From Akkermansiaceae bacterium (GTDB lineage Bacteria > Verrucomicrobiota > Verrucomicrobiia > Verrucomicrobiales > Akkermansiaceae): a stretch of DNA of 64,000 nucleotides. Within the stretch, counting starts at the first letter, position 1, and the number at the start of each line of letters is the position of its first letter. Below, one piece after another: positions 10 through 60,806 of this stretch. The DNA is taken from positions 1-64,000 of the forward strand of contig JALZUC010000001.1 of assembly GCA_023301765.1 (NCBI GenBank), read 5' to 3'. Below the pieces are notes generated by a model that was not told the origin of the DNA, made no database searches, and saw only the letters and a program-made list of their open reading frames with translations. The position numbers were made by a program, and so were the translations under genes.

Positions 10-195
10 TCAAAAATCAAGGACTGACCCCTTTCCTGACTTCCCCAGTTCTCGGTATCGACTCAGCCACTTATGCCCTGTTTTTCTAGATACTCCAAAC
101 CGCTCACACAGCTCCTTTATTGTATAGCGATCACTGCAAGCAAGGATCACAAATCTTTCTCTTTGTTCCATAGGCAGTTCTTTTTTCCAGGCCAT
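10..195 (-). pseudogene. IS481-family transposase, N-terminal remnant
   Basis: The 61-residue frame opens with MAWKKELPMEQRERFV and carries the helix-turn-helix typical of the start of IS481-type transposases (TIKELCERFGVSRKTGHKWLSRY, here about residues 25-47). After 'YRELG' the homology stops and about ten unrelated residues lead to a stop at 10-12, so the whole DDE catalytic core is missing. The foreign tail (about 12-48) reads AAGTCAGGAAAGGGGTCAGTCC on the minus strand and resembles the ends of the short repeats found further right. I infer a dead element whose 3' part was replaced by another mobile sequence. The element could have continued left of the window only if the break is a small rearrangement. 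Confidence 0.75.
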
Positions 196-51974: not shown

Positions 51975-53804
51975 CTACATACCAGCTTCTGCCTTACGTG
52001 CCTTTTCAGCGCGCTTACGCTCGTTTGGATCGAGGATACGTTTACGCAAGCGTAAATGGCTGGGTGTAGCCTCCAGTAGCTCATCAGCCGAGATGTATTC
52101 GATCGCACGCTCAAGTGACATCTTGATTGGAGGAGCAAGTCCCACAGTGATACCCTTAGTAGCTGAGCGGTGATTAGTAAGGCTCTTTGCCTTTACAGGA
52201 TTTACCGGAAGATCATCCTTACGTGGGTTTTCACCAATAATTTGCCCCTCGTAAACCTCATCACCCGGGGCGACAAATAATTTACCACGCTCCTCTAGAG
52301 GTAGTAGTGAGTATGCCATAGCTGTGCCAGTGCTCATACTAACAAGCGTGCCTGTATTACGCGTAACAATCTCACCACAGTGAGGTGCATACTCCTTGAA
52401 CAGGTGAGACATTACACCATGCCCGCTCGTTAAGTTTAGCAGCTCAAACTCAAAACCAATCAGGCCACGTGTAGAAATAGTAGCTTCAATCGTGGCACCA
52501 TGAGTATTACTTCCCATGTCTTCAATACGTGCGCGACGGTTGGCCAGAGACTTCATAACACCCCCAGTATATTCCTCTGGGACTTCTACAAAAACAGACT
52601 CAAACGGTTCTAACACCTCACCACTATCACTCTTTTGAGTAATTACCATTGGGCGAGAAACGAGCACTTCATACCCCTCACGGCGCATTGTCTCTACCAG
52701 AACGGAGATCTGCATGGCACCTCGTGCAGCGACCTCAAAGACTCCAGCTTTGTCAGTGTCTTTCACCTCAATAGAAACATTGGTTTTCACCTCACGTTCC
52801 AGGCGGTCTCTAATGGCACGCGAAGTAACATGTTTACCCTCACGGCCACCGTATGGTCCATCATTAATGGAAAACTGCATCTGCACAGTTGGAGGGTCAA
52901 TAGCTACAAACGGTAATGCCTCTGCCTCAGGGTCAGCAGAAAGCGTCTCACCAATGTCTATGCCCTCAAATCCTGCAACCCCCACAATATTTCCCGCAAC
53001 ACCTTCTGCTGACTCTTGATTAGAGAGTGAGCTGTATTCAAAAACTTTAGTCACCTTACCTCGGGCATTACTACCATCCTTACGGATTAGGTAGATACTA
53101 TCACCCTTTTTCACAGAGCCAGACTGGACCTTACCCAGTGCTACACGACCTACGTAATCATCCCAAGAGATGTTAGAAGCCAGCATCTTAAATGGCGCCT
53201 GCTCATCTGAGTCTGGTGCCTCTACGTGCTCAACGATCGTTTCTAAAAGAGGAACTACATCCTTTTGCTCATCATCTAATGATTTTACAAAAAATCCATT
53301 CTTAGCAGACCCATAAACAAATGGCGCCTCAAACTGATCTTCACTAGCCTCAAGCTCTAGGAAAAGTTCAAGCACACGATCATGCACACCCTCTGGGTCT
53401 GAGTGATCACGGTCGATCTTATTTACCACTACAATGGGAGTCAGCCCCTGCTGAAGAGCCTTACGTAGGACAAAGCGTGTCTGCGCCTGCGGGCCGTCAT
53501 GCGCATCTACAAGTAGAAGCACACCATCCACCATCTTCATTACTCGCTCTACCTCACCACCAAAATCAGCGTGACCTGGGGTATCAACGATATTAATGGT
53601 GTAATCATTCCATTTTACAGAAGTATTTTTTGCCTTGATGGTAATACCCTTTTCACGCTCAAGATCCATCGAGTCCATAGCTCGTTCACCGGCTTGCTGG
53701 TGCTCACCATAGGCTCCGCCAGCTTTAAGTAGCTCGTCAACGAGCGTGGTCTTCCCGTGGTCAACGTGGGCGATAATGGCAATATTACGGATGTTCTTGG
53801 TCAT
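51975..53804 (-). CDS. typA: ribosome-associated GTPase TypA/BipA
   Basis: The 609-aa translational GTPase has G1 [15 protein letters not shown], switch I region with [15 protein letters not shown]3 [15 protein letters not shown]4 NKIDR and G5 GSAKNG, followed by EF-G-like domains and the BipA-specific C-terminal domain ([36 protein letters not shown]). It acts on 50S assembly and adaptation to stress or cold. The gene starts at ATG 53804. Downstream ndh may be in the same transcript. Confidence 0.96.
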
Positions 53805-54095: not shown

Positions 54096-54557
54096 CTATT
54101 TTTCCTTCTTCAATTTGGAAATAAGATTTACCGCTAGATCAATATCACACTCACTCGCCAGAATAAATAATCCATACCCCTCTTCAATACCGCAGTATAT
54201 AACCACAATATCATCCATTTCCATCGTAAGTCTATGCACCCTGCGGCCAGATTTACCTAGCTGCTTACAGTTAGTTAAAAAGGTCCTGCAAGAAGTTCTT
54301 GCAGCCTCTTCACCTAAAAACGTTTCATTATAAATCAACTCACCAACATCATCGCTGATAGCGAAACCCAGCAAACTATCGTTTTCATATAATGGCTGAA
54401 GATGCTTACGTATGGAGCTAAAACTCCCGCTCTCCTCCGGACAAAAACGATCTCCAGATAATAAGGTATCCTTACTAGTTGAAGGCTTCTCATCCATTAC
54501 CTCAACGATTGGGGCATCCATCGGTGTCTCAATTCTTTTAATGATTTTTTTACTCAT
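54096..54557 (-). CDS. roadblock/LC7-like domain protein
   Basis: The 153-aa product has a charged N-terminal tail of about 40 residues and then a roadblock/LC7-like unit: helix SIRKHLQPLYEND, strands LLGFAISDDVGELIYNE, helix ARTSCRTFLTNCKQL, and strands VHRLTMEMDDIVVIYCG and GLFILASECDIDLAVNLISKLKK. MglB-type LC7 proteins regulate small Ras-like GTPases in cell polarity, but no partner GTPase is nearby. It is the last of three minus-strand genes, 11 bases after the 94-aa gene. The fold assignment is by eye. Confidence 0.55.
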   Translation of the reverse strand: MSKKIIKRIETPMDAPIVEVMDEKPSTSKDTLLSGDRFCPEESGSFSSIRKHLQPLYENDSLLGFAISDDVGELIYNETFLGEEAARTSCRTFLTNCKQLGKSGRRVHRLTMEMDDIVVIYCGIEEGYGLFILASECDIDLAVNLISKLKKEK

Positions 54558-54568
54558 TGATACAATGT

Positions 54569-54853
54569 TTAGCCAACTCCTTCATCAAGGGACACCAGAC
54601 AGTCTCGTATACTTTCTTGCTTAGCTTCTAGAATAGCGCAGTCCACATCTATCACCATCTTATCCGGATCTTCGTTGCCTGTGGTCTTTCTCATAACTAC
54701 CACCACCGTATACTCAATCTCCTCACTGACTATTTTCATATTACCATCATTCCCAAACACTTCATTTAGAGGTGAAAATGCCTGTGCAAAATAATTAGCG
54801 TTCTCGGCTACAAAGGCTGAATAAACACCCTTCTCAGATTTTTTACTATTCAT
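54569..54853 (-). CDS. conserved-looking small protein of unknown function (94 aa)
   Basis: The 94-aa product has no signal peptide or membrane segment. Its central strand-like part EIEYTVVVVMRKTTG and terminal helix AILEAKQESIRDCLVSLDE give an alpha/beta pattern that could be a second roadblock-type or an adaptor domain. It stands 19 bases after the metallophosphoesterase stop and 11 before the LC7-like gene, so all three are probably one operon. I do not recognise a family. Confidence 0.5.
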   Translation of the reverse strand: MNSKKSEKGVYSAFVAENANYFAQAFSPLNEVFGNDGNMKIVSEEIEYTVVVVMRKTTGNEDPDKMVIDVDCAILEAKQESIRDCLVSLDEGVG

Positions 54854-54872
54854 TATTCTCGGAGGGAGGGAG

Positions 54873-55622
54873 TTAGGGCTTCATCGCCAGAGAAACTTCA
54901 GCCTCGGGCTTCTGTAACCTCAGTGCATTATGCTCTGGCAGCCCAGCTTTAAGAATTTTCCGGCAGGCTTCTTCTATATCATATTCGACTTTTTGAGGTT
55001 CGATAGACTTTTTACTACTGTCATAAATCACATATTCGGCACGTTTATCATCACTCCGGGGCTGCCCTACTGATCCTACATTCACAAAATACTGATATTC
55101 CCCCTCTAGATTAAATTGACTGTAGTCCCTGAACGTTCGCCTTTCCTCCGTAGAAAAATAAATCTGCTGATGAATATGACCAAAAAAGCACAGGCGCGAT
55201 TTTTGAAAATGGAAATGCAAAATAGCCTCTATCCCATTGACCACATAATGCCAGTTTTCTGGCTCATACATACTCGCATGCACGAGTTCCATATCCCCTA
55301 CACGCCGGTATATTGGTAAATTTCGTAACCATTCGAGTTGCTCAGCACTTAAATGATCACGTGTCCACTCCAGTGAGGCTCGAGCACGAGCGTTCACCCC
55401 CTCTGGCATAACATCTCCAGATGCATAAGCATCATGATTCCCCTTAACCACCGCGCAGTTAAGATCACGGATTATATTCAGACACTCGGAAGGGTTTGCA
55501 TTATAGCCCACTATGTCTCCAAGACATATAAACCTCTTTACACCTTTTGAGTAGGCATCCTCCAGCACGCTCGTAAGAGCTTCTAGGTTCGAATGAATGT
55601 CTGAGATGATTCCGTATTTCAT
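54873..55622 (-). CDS. calcineurin-like metallophosphoesterase (YfcE/DUF2437-like)
   Basis: From ATG 55622 the 249-aa protein shows the full two-metal site: SDIHSN (D-x-H), CLGDIVGYNANP (GD-x-x-GY), VKGNHDAY (GNHD/E), and later H in LVHASMYEPENWHY and FFGHIHQQIYF (GH-x-H). A helical domain lies between. It is the single-domain protein-phosphatase/PDE-like type with unknown substrate; cyclic or dinucleotide phosphodiesters are common in the family. The frame to 55658 adds 12 residues without homology. It leads the operon with the 94-aa and LC7-like genes. Confidence 0.85.
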   Translation of the reverse strand: MKYGIISDIHSNLEALTSVLEDAYSKGVKRFICLGDIVGYNANPSECLNIIRDLNCAVVKGNHDAYASGDVMPEGVNARARASLEWTRDHLSAEQLEWLRNLPIYRRVGDMELVHASMYEPENWHYVVNGIEAILHFHFQKSRLCFFGHIHQQIYFSTEERRTFRDYSQFNLEGEYQYFVNVGSVGQPRSDDKRAEYVIYDSSKKSIEPQKVEYDIEEACRKILKAGLPEHNALRLQKPEAEVSLAMKP

Positions 55623-55914
55623 AATGACTACCTGGCAGATATGTTCATTTGCTGACAAATAATTGTCTAACAGGTAAATATACTAAATAAAAAATATCCA
55701 CCTGTAAACAACCTAAGCTCAACATTGTTTAAATTAATAATAAATCTCAAAATACTTATATAGAATAATGCCAAAACCTCTATAAATACGTAAAAACACT
55801 GATTTACCCCCGCCACCACCATCTGTGAGTTAAATCATCTCTCCCCACGGTGAATCCTCAGTAGAACAGAGATAAGCCTTGCTTACCATGCTTGTATTCA
55901 GAATGCTTTGCAGA

Positions 55915-58122
55915 ATGAATGATGATAGATCTCCCCGTTTGATTAACCTGACAATGCGTGACGGCCAACAATCCACTCTCGACTCTGGCGATTGGATTTT
56001 TGAGCCCAGAGATTTTGCTAAAATCATCTCCGCCTCAGCAGCAGCTGGATTTCATGGAGCAGAAGTTGCAGGCGGGCAAAGTTTTCAGATTGCTATCAGT
56101 AGAGGCTATAACCCCTTTACCATCCTTGGAGCGGTCAGCCACGCCATTTCAGAGTCTGATAAAATTCAGGACTTTGAACTCCAAATGCTCTTCCGTGGCG
56201 CTAATGCCCTTGGATTTAGACACTACGATAAAGATCTTATTGAAATGACACTCAACGAGTTCATCAAAAACGGCATCACTAAGATTCGGTTTTTTGATGC
56301 CCTCAATGATATTGAAAACCTGGAACTACCGGAATCTATCAAAGGCCTAGAACGTATCGTTCTCGAAGGCGCCATTTGCTTCACCCATTATGCAGACGCA
56401 CCAGAGCGCTACACAGATGCCTACTTCTGTGCCTACGCTGAAGAGCTTATCAACGCTGGTTATAACGCCATCGCCATCAAAGATATGTCAGGCCAGCTTA
56501 CAGCAGACCGTATCTCCACGCTCCTCCCCGCGCTCCTAACCATTCTCGAAGTAAAAAATATCCCCTTTACCCTTCACTGCCACTCGACAAATGCGGAAAG
56601 CTCTAAAAATGCCATCGCACGTGCCATTGAACTTGGAGTACACACCATCGAGACTGCGGAAGGCTGTCTAGCCGGAGGGTCCTCCCACCACTCACTCGCC
56701 ACAGTAGCCCCCCAGCTCATCCCTAATCAGGTTAACTACAACAAATTTGAAAAAAGTATCGAAAACATATGGGGCAAACACCCCGACCGCAAAGATAAGG
56801 AAATCCCCCAAGACCTTAAGGAGCAACTCTGTGCAGCAGGTGTCCCAGGTGGTGCCATGCCATTTGTCATCCGCGACTTACAGCAGCAAGAGGCCACCAT
56901 TCGCGCAAAATATTTAGCCTCTAATAAATCCATAAAAACTCGCGAAGACCTTAATAAGTTCTCCACCATTGTAGACCTCTTTATCATCGAATTAAAACGC
57001 GTCTGCCAAGATGCCGCCCTCCCTCTCCTGGTCACACCCACAGCTGACATCTGCTGTAAGCAAGCTATCGCCAACCTTGCCATCGGAGCAGACCCACACT
57101 CAGACTCACTCGCAGAGCGCTATCTAAACAGAGGTGGTCAGCCAAACCCTGACCCTCGATACGCCAAGCTCATTCTCGGCTACTATGGTGAACTAAAATC
57201 ATATGATTCCTGTGGGCAAACTCATACCCCCTCTACAGACGTAATCCAGTTTTTCGAGTCTAACAATAGCCTTCAACTTCTGGCCATTACCCACCATCCA
57301 TCCCAAACAATCGGTGGTGATGATCTACGTGAGGCACAACATTCCGCATGGCAACTAATCCAGCGGCTCGGCACTCAGGCACTCTCCTATGCTGACTTCG
57401 ATCAACTTACCATCCTCTATGCACTTAAACCCTCAGGAGCCACACAAACAGACCCTATCGAGCAGGCCGTGCAAACGTATATCAAACGTGCAGAAAGATC
57501 CAAGATCGACGGCAGTGGTAGCACCTTCCCTGACTATGAAACACTAATGCAGCCTATGCTCACTCACCTAAGTGCCATGTTTGTCCTGCAGCCAGAACTT
57601 AAAGCAAAAGATATCCCCAAACTCCCCCTTGCCAAACTCGGGAACAATCTCTGCAATCAACTATTTGACATCTACATAGATCTCCCAATCTGGTCTAATG
57701 TCACTTCGTTAAGTAATCACCTCTCCAAGCTGTTATCTTCATCTCACATTTCCCCGGAACTATTAGAAGCAGTCCAAAATGTAAGCCAAAGTCTCACTAT
57801 GTTAGATGCACGCCCATCTAAACAAGAAAAAGATACACTCCACGCGGCGCGGATACAATTCAGTCAACTCAGCATCTCAGACCTCCTCAATAGCGTTGCT
57901 CTTATCAATAGTTTCATCAATGACATCGCCAAATATGCAACTAACCCTAAAGCATACGCCGCACGCAGTATTGGCTTCGCAGATTTAGACCGGCTTACCA
58001 AGCTCCCCAGCTCTGACCAAAAAACAAACCCATGGGAAATCGGCATTCAGCAAAGCATCACGGGGAAATACCTACGCCTAGAAAACGACTTTCGCCGCCG
58101 TGCAGAAAACTGGAAAGCTTAA
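55915..58122 (+). CDS. stand-alone biotin-type carboxyltransferase (pyruvate carboxylase/oxaloacetate decarboxylase alpha-like)
   Basis: The 735-aa protein has the TIM-barrel carboxyltransferase domain: start LINLTMRDGQQSTL (residues ~8-21), the strand AIKDMSGQLTADRI with the carbamoylated-Lys position (~185), metal His in LHCHSTNAESS and ETAEGCLAGGSSHHSL, then PGGAMPFVIRDLQQQ and LLVTPTADICCKQAIANL. The next part has KLILGYYGELK. The last ~250 residues are helical and unlike known family members, and no biotinyl lysine site (E/A-M-K-M) is present, nor is a biotin carboxylase nearby. It would need a separate biotin carrier or act differently. ATG 55915 is preferred to 55879. Confidence 0.75.
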   Translation: MNDDRSPRLINLTMRDGQQSTLDSGDWIFEPRDFAKIISASAAAGFHGAEVAGGQSFQIAISRGYNPFTILGAVSHAISESDKIQDFELQMLFRGANALGFRHYDKDLIEMTLNEFIKNGITKIRFFDALNDIENLELPESIKGLERIVLEGAICFTHYADAPERYTDAYFCAYAEELINAGYNAIAIKDMSGQLTADRISTLLPALLTILEVKNIPFTLHCHSTNAESSKNAIARAIELGVHTIETAEGCLAGGSSHHSLATVAPQLIPNQVNYNKFEKSIENIWGKHPDRKDKEIPQDLKEQLCAAGVPGGAMPFVIRDLQQQEATIRAKYLASNKSIKTREDLNKFSTIVDLFIIELKRVCQDAALPLLVTPTADICCKQAIANLAIGADPHSDSLAERYLNRGGQPNPDPRYAKLILGYYGELKSYDSCGQTHTPSTDVIQFFESNNSLQLLAITHHPSQTIGGDDLREAQHSAWQLIQRLGTQALSYADFDQLTILYALKPSGATQTDPIEQAVQTYIKRAERSKIDGSGSTFPDYETLMQPMLTHLSAMFVLQPELKAKDIPKLPLAKLGNNLCNQLFDIYIDLPIWSNVTSLSNHLSKLLSSSHISPELLEAVQNVSQSLTMLDARPSKQEKDTLHAARIQFSQLSISDLLNSVALINSFINDIAKYATNPKAYAARSIGFADLDRLTKLPSSDQKTNPWEIGIQQSITGKYLRLENDFRRRAENWKA

Positions 58123-58268: not shown

Positions 58269-60806
58269 ATGCCGCAACCACAAATCAAAGGTTATAAAAT
58301 TGATAGCCTCGTAGGCGAAGGAGCATGCGGCAGCATATACATTGCCCGTAAATCCACTAAGCCTAAATTAGGCGAATGGTTTGCGGTAAGATCATTTGAT
58401 TCTCTCGCAGTTAATCGACCTCTGCTCGAAAGTATAACTAGTAGGCTTAATCAAAGTAACTACCCAGATGGTCTAGCCCCCATCACTTGGGTTCAGCCTA
58501 AGCGAGGCAGCGACTGTATCATTATGCCCATGCTTGCAGACGTAGATGAGGCCAAAAGCACCATCAAAATACGCTCTCTCCAAGAACGCATAACAGAATA
58601 CCCCAAGGGTGACGCATGGGACATCATCGATAAAATGGCCCACGCACTAGCCAGTATGCACGAGCGCCGTATCCCTCACGGAAATCTAAAACCAGGCAAC
58701 ATATTTTTTGACGATAAGGGCGAGCTATTACTAACAGATTTCGCCATGGGGCACATGCCAGATGTCAGTATGCTCCCATATACAGATGCCATTCTCTACG
58801 CGCCACCAGAACAGCTGCGTGATCCTGCTGGCTACCACTCTGAGAAAGGCTACCGCTGGGACACCTACGCCTTTGCAGCCATCTCATACCGCCTCCTCAC
58901 AGGTAAATTCTCCCGTTGTGACAACAACTTTCAAAAAATAGTCCAAGAAGCCGAGCAAGGCTCCATCACCAGCAGTAAGGACTACGTCATCAAACTAGCA
59001 GAGCAACTAGAAAATAGTGACTTAGAAGACGGCCCAGAGAAAAAACTTAGTCCGCGTGAAATAAAACGTCTAAAAGTCCTCAAGCGCTGTCTATCGATCA
59101 ATCCTGATGAGCGATACCATAACCTCCCCACAGTCATTCAAGCTTGGAAGGACATTGACACCCAAACTCGCGTTGCGAAAGACCGCTCCAAACTCAAAAA
59201 GAAAATAGCCCTCTGTGCAGTCGGTATGGTCACGGCACTTCTTCTTGCCGCAGCTGGTGCAAAAAGATGCCTAGTAGTATCTGAACTTCTAAAATCTGAA
59301 AAATCCGCGCGTAGCTCAGACGTCAACGAACTCAATACATACATACAAACACTCACTCAAGAGCGTAAAAATGCTCAAGAGTCTGAAAGTGCTGCCATCA
59401 CGAGGCGCGATCAAGCCGTTACTCGTGAAGTTAAAATCCGTGACCAACTCATCGCATTAGGTGTTACCAATGACCACCTACTAGCCTGGATGCTGCGTGA
59501 TAAAAACGCCGACCTCCCTGAACTCAGGAAAACTGGACCAGATAAAACAGCCGTTGAAGCCATGAAGCGTGAACTCCGTAACTTCCTCAAAATTACAGAG
59601 GGCGAAGAACACTTCCAAGACATCCGCGCGCGTATCCTACTCCAGCTCTCTGAGCTTGAAGTCCACCAAGGGAACCCCTCCACTAGCTCCGGCCTGCTGG
59701 ACAAAGCCATCCCAGCATTAAAAAAAGCAAATGTCACAGAGCCGGACCTTAACTACCGCATAGCACGTGCACGCTTAATCGGCCTCATGCAGGCTCAAGA
59801 TCAAAAGAACCAGGAACTAGTTATCGCTCAGCTCCCAAAAGCTCGTGAAGCCATCGCTCAGCTTAAATCATCTGACCCCACAGAAACTCAAAGAATCCAT
59901 GCCACCATGGAAATTATCGATGGCCGCCTCATAGAGGATCAAAATCCCACTAAAGCCATCAGCCACTTTCAAAATGCCATCGAAAACCTCAAAGGTATAC
60001 AAAAAGCACTACCTGAAAACATCGGTATCCGCTCTGACTTAGCTAAACGTATTCTGCACTGCTCTACACTAGCAGAAAGCCTCGACCGTATAGATGATGC
60101 TACCAAACTCCGCGGTGAAGCCGCAAACCACCTCCGGTGGCTCTTAGCAAAAAACCCCAAAATCACCTTTGCAAGAATTAGACTAGCGGAAATAGAGATC
60201 ATATCCGCAGAAGCAGATTTACTCTCAGGCCTAGACAGTGCTGGCCAGAGAAAACTCGAGAAAGCCGAAGAACTATTAAACGGCCTAGACACCACAGACA
60301 TCACCCCCACAGGTGCTGCTATGCAAATTGCACTCACCAAAGGTCTACGTTCGGTATTACTACGTGATATTGGTCAGACTTCAAATTCAGCCAAGAGCCT
60401 AGACTCAGCCATAGGAATTTGTAAAAGAATCGTAGCCGCAAACCCAGACGCCCACGAGCCACTCTACCGCTTAGCTGGATTCCACTGGCAACGCGCCAGT
60501 CTCGCTGGAAGCACAGGAGACTACACCACTGAACTCAAACTCGGTAAATCAGCGGCAGACATGATGGAACAAGTCCTTAAAAAGGGCGCTGGTAAACATG
60601 ATAATGAACTACGCCGCTCACTAGCATACCTCTACGGAAACCTTGCAAAAACAAGCTCACGTAAAAAGAGAAATTCAGACGCTTTAGCCTATTACAAAAA
60701 CGCCGCCACCATCTGGCAGAGCCTCGTAGATAAAGACAGTAAGAGCAGCGAATATACTGAAGGCCTCAAATGGAGCCAGCAGCGAGCTAAAAGCCTTTCG
60801 CAATAA
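58269..60806 (+). CDS. membrane pseudokinase with TPR-like domain
   Basis: The 845-aa protein has an N-terminal Hanks-type kinase fold: glycine loop VGEGACGSIYIARK, then FAVR (Arg41 where Lys is usual), HGNLKPGN (His137-Gly-Asn139 where HRD has the catalytic Asp), LTDFAMG (Asp157-Phe-Ala instead of DFG) and the APPEQLRD motif (APE analogue). One transmembrane helix follows (about residues 315-338, KKKIALCAVGMVTALLLAAAG). After it come a coiled coil and a long helical region with TPR-like periodicity to the end. Loss of Lys and catalytic Asp suggests it does not phosphorylate. It follows the carboxyltransferase by 146 bases. Confidence 0.8.
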   Translation: MPQPQIKGYKIDSLVGEGACGSIYIARKSTKPKLGEWFAVRSFDSLAVNRPLLESITSRLNQSNYPDGLAPITWVQPKRGSDCIIMPMLADVDEAKSTIKIRSLQERITEYPKGDAWDIIDKMAHALASMHERRIPHGNLKPGNIFFDDKGELLLTDFAMGHMPDVSMLPYTDAILYAPPEQLRDPAGYHSEKGYRWDTYAFAAISYRLLTGKFSRCDNNFQKIVQEAEQGSITSSKDYVIKLAEQLENSDLEDGPEKKLSPREIKRLKVLKRCLSINPDERYHNLPTVIQAWKDIDTQTRVAKDRSKLKKKIALCAVGMVTALLLAAAGAKRCLVVSELLKSEKSARSSDVNELNTYIQTLTQERKNAQESESAAITRRDQAVTREVKIRDQLIALGVTNDHLLAWMLRDKNADLPELRKTGPDKTAVEAMKRELRNFLKITEGEEHFQDIRARILLQLSELEVHQGNPSTSSGLLDKAIPALKKANVTEPDLNYRIARARLIGLMQAQDQKNQELVIAQLPKAREAIAQLKSSDPTETQRIHATMEIIDGRLIEDQNPTKAISHFQNAIENLKGIQKALPENIGIRSDLAKRILHCSTLAESLDRIDDATKLRGEAANHLRWLLAKNPKITFARIRLAEIEIISAEADLLSGLDSAGQRKLEKAEELLNGLDTTDITPTGAAMQIALTKGLRSVLLRDIGQTSNSAKSLDSAIGICKRIVAANPDAHEPLYRLAGFHWQRASLAGSTGDYTTELKLGKSAADMMEQVLKKGAGKHDNELRRSLAYLYGNLAKTSSRKKRNSDALAYYKNAATIWQSLVDKDSKSSEYTEGLKWSQQRAKSLSQ

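Follow-up and report, generated by a model that had tools for sequence, protein, structure and literature searches.

The stretch of DNA analyzed here (64,000 nucleotides of an Akkermansiaceae contig; hereafter, the window) carries three consecutive reverse-strand genes, which encode a metallophosphoesterase (MPE), a 94-aa protein, and a 153-aa protein with a modeled roadblock/LC7-type fold; we refer to this trio as the type A triad (Table 1). The intergenic gaps of 19 bp (MPE/94-aa) and 11 bp (94-aa/153-aa), confirmed from the ORF coordinates, are those given in the original prediction, which had been made from the DNA letters. The MPE starts with an ATG at 55622, its stop ends at 54873, and the alignment of its relatives begins at the same ATG. 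As the same gene order recurs in 18 other loci (eight type A and ten of a paralogous kind, type B), the window trio is a real unit, beyond chance. None of the three genes encodes a GTPase; the nearest same-strand gene, 291 bp downstream, encodes TypA. A promoter and terminator scan was uninformative as to promoters (5 found vs 5.5 expected).

Table 1. Coordinates of the triad genes and of the neighboring typA gene in the window
Feature	Coordinates	Strand	Basis
Metallophosphoesterase (MPE), 249 aa, gene 1 of the type A triad	54873..55622	-	PF12850; PDB 3rqz
94-aa small protein, gene 2	54569..54853	-	homologs between MPE and LC7 in relatives
153-aa protein, roadblock/LC7 fold (model), gene 3	54096..54557	-	AF2 core model; Foldseek; VIA-align
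Parts of the 153-aa protein: N-terminal tail ~1-43 (non-conserved); core ~44-153			
TypA/BipA translational GTPase gene	51975..53804	-	TIGR01394, E 1.2e-247

Two further genes lie upstream of the triad. The one at 55879-58122 matched a pyruvate carboxylase subunit B/oxaloacetate decarboxylase alpha-like family of NCBIfam (E 6e-45, far below the cut-off) in a manner that leaves its C-terminal part uncovered, and Pfam gave no match at E<=0.001, which is the picture of a divergent carboxyltransferase-like protein. The other, at 58269-60806, two genes upstream and on the opposite strand, encodes an 845-aa protein kinase (Ser/Thr-type) with TPR repeats; a kinase-like ORF likewise lies near the triad of another locus (L202).

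Products of the window triad

The window MPE matched Metallophos_2 (PF12850, E 1.4e-18), with PF00149 also above its cut-off, and its closest solved relatives by sequence were PDB 3rqz (E 2e-37) and 3qfm (E 2.6e-10), neither of which is known to be linked to a roadblock protein. Its residues SDxH (7-10), GD (35-36), GNHD (61-64), H115, and GHxH (148-151), which we take to be the usual calcineurin-like metal-site motifs, are invariant among 13 aligned triad MPEs, which bears out the original description of the metal site as complete. By its profile match and its full set of metal ligands, the protein is a calcineurin-like metallophosphoesterase with a predicted activity.

The 94-aa protein, already called unrecognized in the original prediction, had no match of weight in Pfam or NCBIfam, and we put the weak rows that this and the 153-aa protein produced (YchJ_M-like, E 0.053; DS1_1_antiphage, E 0.0055, 15.7 of 330 bits) down to chance. 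Its single-sequence AF2 model was unusable (pLDDT 38.8). Since a profile comparison with roadblock profiles returned a prob of 0.2, we do not call this protein a second roadblock domain. Its homologs sit between the MPE and LC7 genes in eight other type A and ten type B loci, and the small-protein gene adjoins the roadblock-like gene in every accepted member locus.

For the 153-aa protein, too, Pfam and NCBIfam held no match of weight. A single-sequence AF2 model of its core (residues 44-153; mean pLDDT 66.8) showed the element order a-b-b-a-b-b-b-a, which is that of the roadblock fold. In a Foldseek comparison with the PDB, the 50 rows listed had a probability of 1.00 and E values of 5.5e-5 to 1.1e-3, and included archaeal roadblocks, MglC (7ct3), MglB (6izw, 3t1r, 6hjm), a Streptomyces protein (3leq), Ragulator, Rag GTPase complexes, and axonemal entries. 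With VIA-align, the 50 rows listed, Mon1-Ccz1 and KICSTOR chains among them, reached Z scores of 8.9-10.5 on 92-106 aligned residues. The check on the fold thus came out in favor of a roadblock-type fold, as a model. Sequence comparison was far less telling: Robl_LC7 (PF03259) found no match at E<=10 in the genome of the window and matched 1/13 members of the 153-aa family (E 0.13); an hhalign comparison of this family with 20 PF03259 domains from the order was weak (prob 8.3 over 27 columns); and phmmer and profile searches of the PDB gave no relatives (AetF rows at E 0.5-0.6 and one other at 0.71). The single-sequence nature of the model, its pLDDT, and the low hhalign value are weak points that we count against the reading favored below. 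The original prediction had also mentioned a long charged tail. Such a tail exists, but it is N-terminal and is missing from 6/8 other type A proteins, so that a role for it is not supported.

Conservation of the triad and its type B paralog

Among 98 genomes searched, that of the window included, the type A triad is present in nine, with small-protein and LC7 matches in the same nine and the order MPE-small-LC7 in 9/9 loci. Raw matches at E<=0.1 had extended to 12/98 and 13/98 genomes for the 94-aa and 153-aa queries, respectively, of which nine were kept as type A in each case; G015, G045, and G092 (first search) and G033, G042, and G050 (second search) were dropped as chance, and G030 in the second search was a type B match. 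Within the genus, the type A MPE occurs in the same 8/14 genomes as the small and LC7 proteins; two genes would share the same 8/14 genomes by chance about 1 time in 3000, a figure to be read with the genomes being non-independent through shared descent. The pairwise distances among the three type A proteins correlate moderately (r 0.54-0.78), which we count against the module reading favored below.

The typA gene follows the type A triad in five loci (the window, L003, L004, L006, and L007); it is absent after the triad in L005, L008, and L009, and the contig of L010 ends before this position. Its identity was tested by TIGR01394 for the copies in the window and in L198, and judged by eye for the others. 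With TypA behind five triads and not behind three, it is the triad itself that is kept and not its neighborhood, and TypA is probably a neighbor rather than a part of the module.

A second triad, type B, lies on the same contig outside the window (~70.8-72.7 kb), ~15 kb from the first, and encodes an MPE, a 99-aa small protein, and a roadblock-like protein of 230 aa that is extended at its C-terminus. Across the type B LC7 proteins, this extension of ~80 residues (KRVAP.G.A..MI ... IPNA.RRK) is best seen in L002, L029, L030, and L118, is looser in other members, and is partly lost in L027; Pfam found no convincing match to it. A small-protein profile gave strong matches (E<=1.6e-21) in 10/260 genomes of the family, that of the window included, all of them type B, and the order MPE-small-LC7 held in 10/10 of these loci. 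The same profile matched 15/260 genomes in all, the other five being either type A (G011, G012, G013) or long ORFs (G508, G511); additional rows in genomes already counted belonged to type A (the second ones of G000, the window genome, and G008), to a long ORF (G013:C8), and to the L131 pair of G631. Gene order is therefore co-conserved in relatives (nine loci of type A, ten of type B), as the original prediction had proposed to check, but a spread over Verrucomicrobia is not supported: the module was found in one family only. Two small-protein profiles run on 387 phylum genomes (197-198 genera, drawn evenly, with the window genome and family members included) revealed no other triad: they matched the window genome alone, apart from one match (G121, E 6e-4) that was rejected, there being no MPE or LC7 gene beside it.

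One locus of G631 (L203; 3866-5689 of that stretch, contig G631:C30) has the order small-LC7-small with no MPE, which we count against a module built on the MPE. The family profile A8 recognizes both small proteins of this locus (2e-26 for the one that is a profile member, 9e-12 for the non-member). Given this pair without an MPE, small protein and LC7 may be the core unit. Read by eye, the 312-aa LC7 protein of L203 combines a hydrophobic segment with a long region of charged repeats.

In a tree of 78 MPEs, which took in 40 of the 80 best loci from a collection of named genomes, the type A and type B MPEs each formed one clade (SH-aLRT 100 and 97, respectively); the two were sister clades with an SH-aLRT of 80, which is not decisive. 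The best reading of the sequences is that the type A triad would be a diverged paralog of type B. The ordinary MPE of the family genomes, which the window genome also encodes (on C18), grouped with records named as Akkermansiaceae, Roseibacillus, and Prosthecobacter, from which we take the family to be, probably, Akkermansiaceae or a near neighbor. This MPE family is widespread: its 80 best loci in named genomes, out of at least 560 and from a scan that possibly left out the records nearest to the window genome, belong to Verrucomicrobiota, Kiritimatiellota, and Lentisphaerota. No small or LC7 homolog lay near the MPE in the fetched stretches of these 80 best loci, and a glycosyltransferase-9-like gene stood just downstream in 40 of them (by motif; two checked with Pfam).

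Two other features of these MPE genes were seen. In a number of the 80 loci (L034-L113), a short ORF whose product ends in FRGFEI precedes the ordinary MPE. A fourth MPE of the window genome (703-2253 of L187; G000:C27, ~33.35-34.06 kb) continues, after an apparent membrane helix, into a fused C-terminal part that contains an F5/8 type C domain, and has long-ORF relatives in G001, G002, G007, G008, and G013 (L184 and L185 by eye, the others by frame length and tree).

Ammonium transporters linked to type B triads

In 9/10 type B loci, the next same-strand gene, 15-71 bp downstream, encodes an ammonium transporter (Amt). All nine linked Amts were found by PF00909 (E 1.1e-107 for that of the window genome). 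The exception is the genome G030, where no amt gene adjoins the type B triad and no Amt has Asp at the position discussed below (D50), which we count against the reading favored below. No amt gene stands beside the type A triads in the stretches read.

The nine linked Amts formed a single clade (support 100/99) in a tree of 42 rows from 20 genomes, which were of our own choosing, four of them without a triad, and for which the tree program warned of long branches meeting; the 33 other rows include four duplicates from overlapping loci. For a comparison of residues, the duplicates were removed, three genes added, and two fragments left out, so that 41 of 43 PF00909 places remained (9 linked and 32 others). 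We took the residues of the ammonium site of Ks-Amt5, a sensor Amt that carries its output domain in fused form, from the parts of PMC5764959 used here, and the site positions below follow its numbering.

At positions 24, 31, 47, 50, 51, 109, and 112, the residues of the linked Amts are Q, E, N, D, M or F, T, and S, respectively, so that the acidic site (E31 and D50 with Q24, N47, and T109) is complete in 9/9. As E31, N47, and T109 also occur in 15/32 unlinked Amts, it is D50, Q24, and F34 alone that discriminate, being present in 9/9 linked and 0/32 other Amts; the unlinked proteins have I (23), M (8), or L (1) at position 50 and always L at position 34. Three further residues of Ks-Amt5 differ in the linked Amts, namely T51 (M in six, F in three), T112 (S in nine), and the pore-blocking Tyr30 (L in four, I in five).

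Among solved structures, the linked Amt of G008 scored best against Ks-Amt5 (6eu6, 281.6 bits), followed by 8qj3 (265.5 bits), whereas the unlinked Amt of the window genome scored best against 8qj3 (265.8 bits), followed by 6eu6 (236 bits). Since an unlinked Amt also prefers these two structures, the best structure match alone proves little, and the site residues carry the point. By these residues, the linked Amts look like sensors. With T51, T112, and Tyr30 changed and the pore residues intact, they may simply transport, which we count against the sensor reading.

At their C-termini (L188-L196), the linked Amts end in (A/S)EHS..AYPDF and acidic residues; the full-length unlinked ones have EHG, DHG, or SHG..AY. 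The C-terminus of a linked Amt is possibly a docking tail.

Interpretation and comparison with known systems

Members of the roadblock/LC7 superfamily are known to dimerize and act as adaptors. Given the co-conserved gene order and the roadblock-type model, a small signaling module without a Ras-like GTPase is a reasonable reading of the triad; this much of the original proposal stands, while a role of the tail and a spread over the phylum are not supported. The further idea that the LC7-type protein senses the phosphoesterase output is conjectural. We favor, tentatively and with somewhat less than even confidence, a GTPase-free roadblock module of which the family keeps two or more copies: in type B it would couple the phosphoesterase to a sensor-like Amt, and type A would be a diverged paralog. 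The roadblock and 94-aa proteins would form a hetero-oligomeric cytoplasmic adaptor that binds the MPE and controls its activity toward a putative substrate, where MglA/MglB or conservon systems control a Ras-like GTPase. In type B, the Amt would bind ammonium at its intramembrane Q24/E31/N47/D50/T109 site and, by way of its C-terminus, pass the signal to the adaptor, which would in turn act on the MPE. The type A copy would have lost, or never had, this Amt link and may answer to some other input. That the type B unit directly precedes an Amt gene may point to a mode of ammonium sensing that has yet to be described. The stronger claim, that a stand-alone sensor Amt acting through the roadblock/small adaptor on the MPE constitutes a new ammonium-signaling system, with type A as a second, rewired channel in the same genome, is possible but, in our estimate, doubtful.

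A competing account, which we regard as unlikely, is that the type B unit controls ammonium uptake: the Amt would work as a transporter that the roadblock-small-MPE complex opens and closes, as a family-specific alternative to GlnK, and the type A unit would control some other membrane protein. The pore residues W144, H171, F223, S227, and H326 are intact in the linked Amts (selectivity filter, Phe gate, and twin-His are kept in 9/9), and Tyr30 is replaced by Leu or Ile. The C-terminal tail (AEHS/SEHS..AYPDF plus acidic residues), as opposed to that of unlinked Amts, would suit such control as well, and P-II, encoded once in the window genome, is on C51, away from the operon; visual reading of the type B stretches revealed no P-II-like gene. 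The confinement of D50, Q24, and F34 to the linked Amts, however, argues for more than transport.

It is improbable, in our judgment, that a GTPase is involved after all, with the 153-aa protein as a divergent MglB-like regulator of a distant or unrecognized Ras-like GTPase and the MPE only loosely associated. MglB and MglC are among the structural neighbors of the model, the sections of PMC4316618 drawn on here count 328 MglB homologs not coupled to MglA, and a translational GTPase, TypA, follows five of the type A triads. Against this, a search of the 98%-complete window genome with one Arf/Ras-type model, PF00025 (E<=0.01), returned a single match, ObgE. Moreover, by eye, no small GTPase was recognized beside the roadblock gene at the 19 triad loci, where the constant neighbor is the MPE.

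A role in housekeeping nucleotide or phosphate metabolism, in which the MPE is a general phosphoesterase that the small proteins stabilize or localize, would suit the wide spread of the MPE family, with its partnerless loci and glycosyltransferase-9-like neighbors, but has little probability in our view, as the window genome already holds an ordinary MPE and the triad MPEs form clades of their own in which two additional genes are retained, with one copy tied to an Amt.

Discussion of bacterial roadblock proteins usually centers on their partnership with small GTPases, yet orphans are numerous among them. A unit found across a family in which a roadblock-type protein goes with a phosphoesterase, and whose twin stands with a sensor-like Amt, would give such orphans a concrete role. 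In the parts of PMC4316618 used here, the superfamily is described as predicted NTPase regulators, and no orphan MglB had been characterized at the time. Within the open-licence PMC literature, as far as the passages retrieved extend, we found no description of a unit of a roadblock protein with a metallophosphoesterase and/or an ammonium transporter. The one candidate for an earlier description, PMC3992018, was rejected: it lists amtB, a metallophosphoesterase, and a roadblock protein in table rows whose locus tags are far apart, and the roadblock protein is RarB, adjoining RarC and RarD.

The nearest known architecture is the actinobacterial conservon, an operon of the kinase CvnA, the roadblock protein CvnB, the small protein CvnC, and the GTPase CvnD, according to the sections of PMC13343842 consulted. 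The MglA/MglB and conservon (AGPS) systems resemble the triads in that (i) a roadblock protein shares an operon with a small partner and an enzyme, joined in conservons by a membrane sensor, and (ii) several paralogous copies occur per genome (PMC13343842 and PMC4316618, in the same parts). They differ in that the triad has no Ras-like GTPase gene and has the MPE in the place of the enzyme, in that the Robl_LC7 profile is blind to the triad sequences, and in phylum; and type B has a sensor-like Amt instead of the histidine kinase of conservons. With the MPE in place of the kinase and GTPase, the triad is not a member of the conservons, but by analogy it may work like one.

As regards the input, two fused sensor Amts are the closest comparison, and the likeness is limited to the type B paralog, outside the window. 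PDB 8qj3/8qpf (644-661 aa), probably the sensor Amt of Shewanella denitrificans with its fused diguanylate cyclase, aligns with Q, E, N, D, F, T, and S at the Ks-Amt5 site positions, as do three linked Amts, but is a longer chain with an extra C-terminal part, whereas any type B output would lie in separate operon genes. With Ks-Amt5 itself, the linked Amts share residues of the ammonium site and pore block (Q24, E31, N47, D50, T109, F27, and F34), while T51, T112, and Tyr30 are changed and there is no fused kinase or other output domain. If our reading is right, dividing sensor and output among separate genes would offer cells a further means of registering ammonium, beside the fused output of Ks-Amt5.
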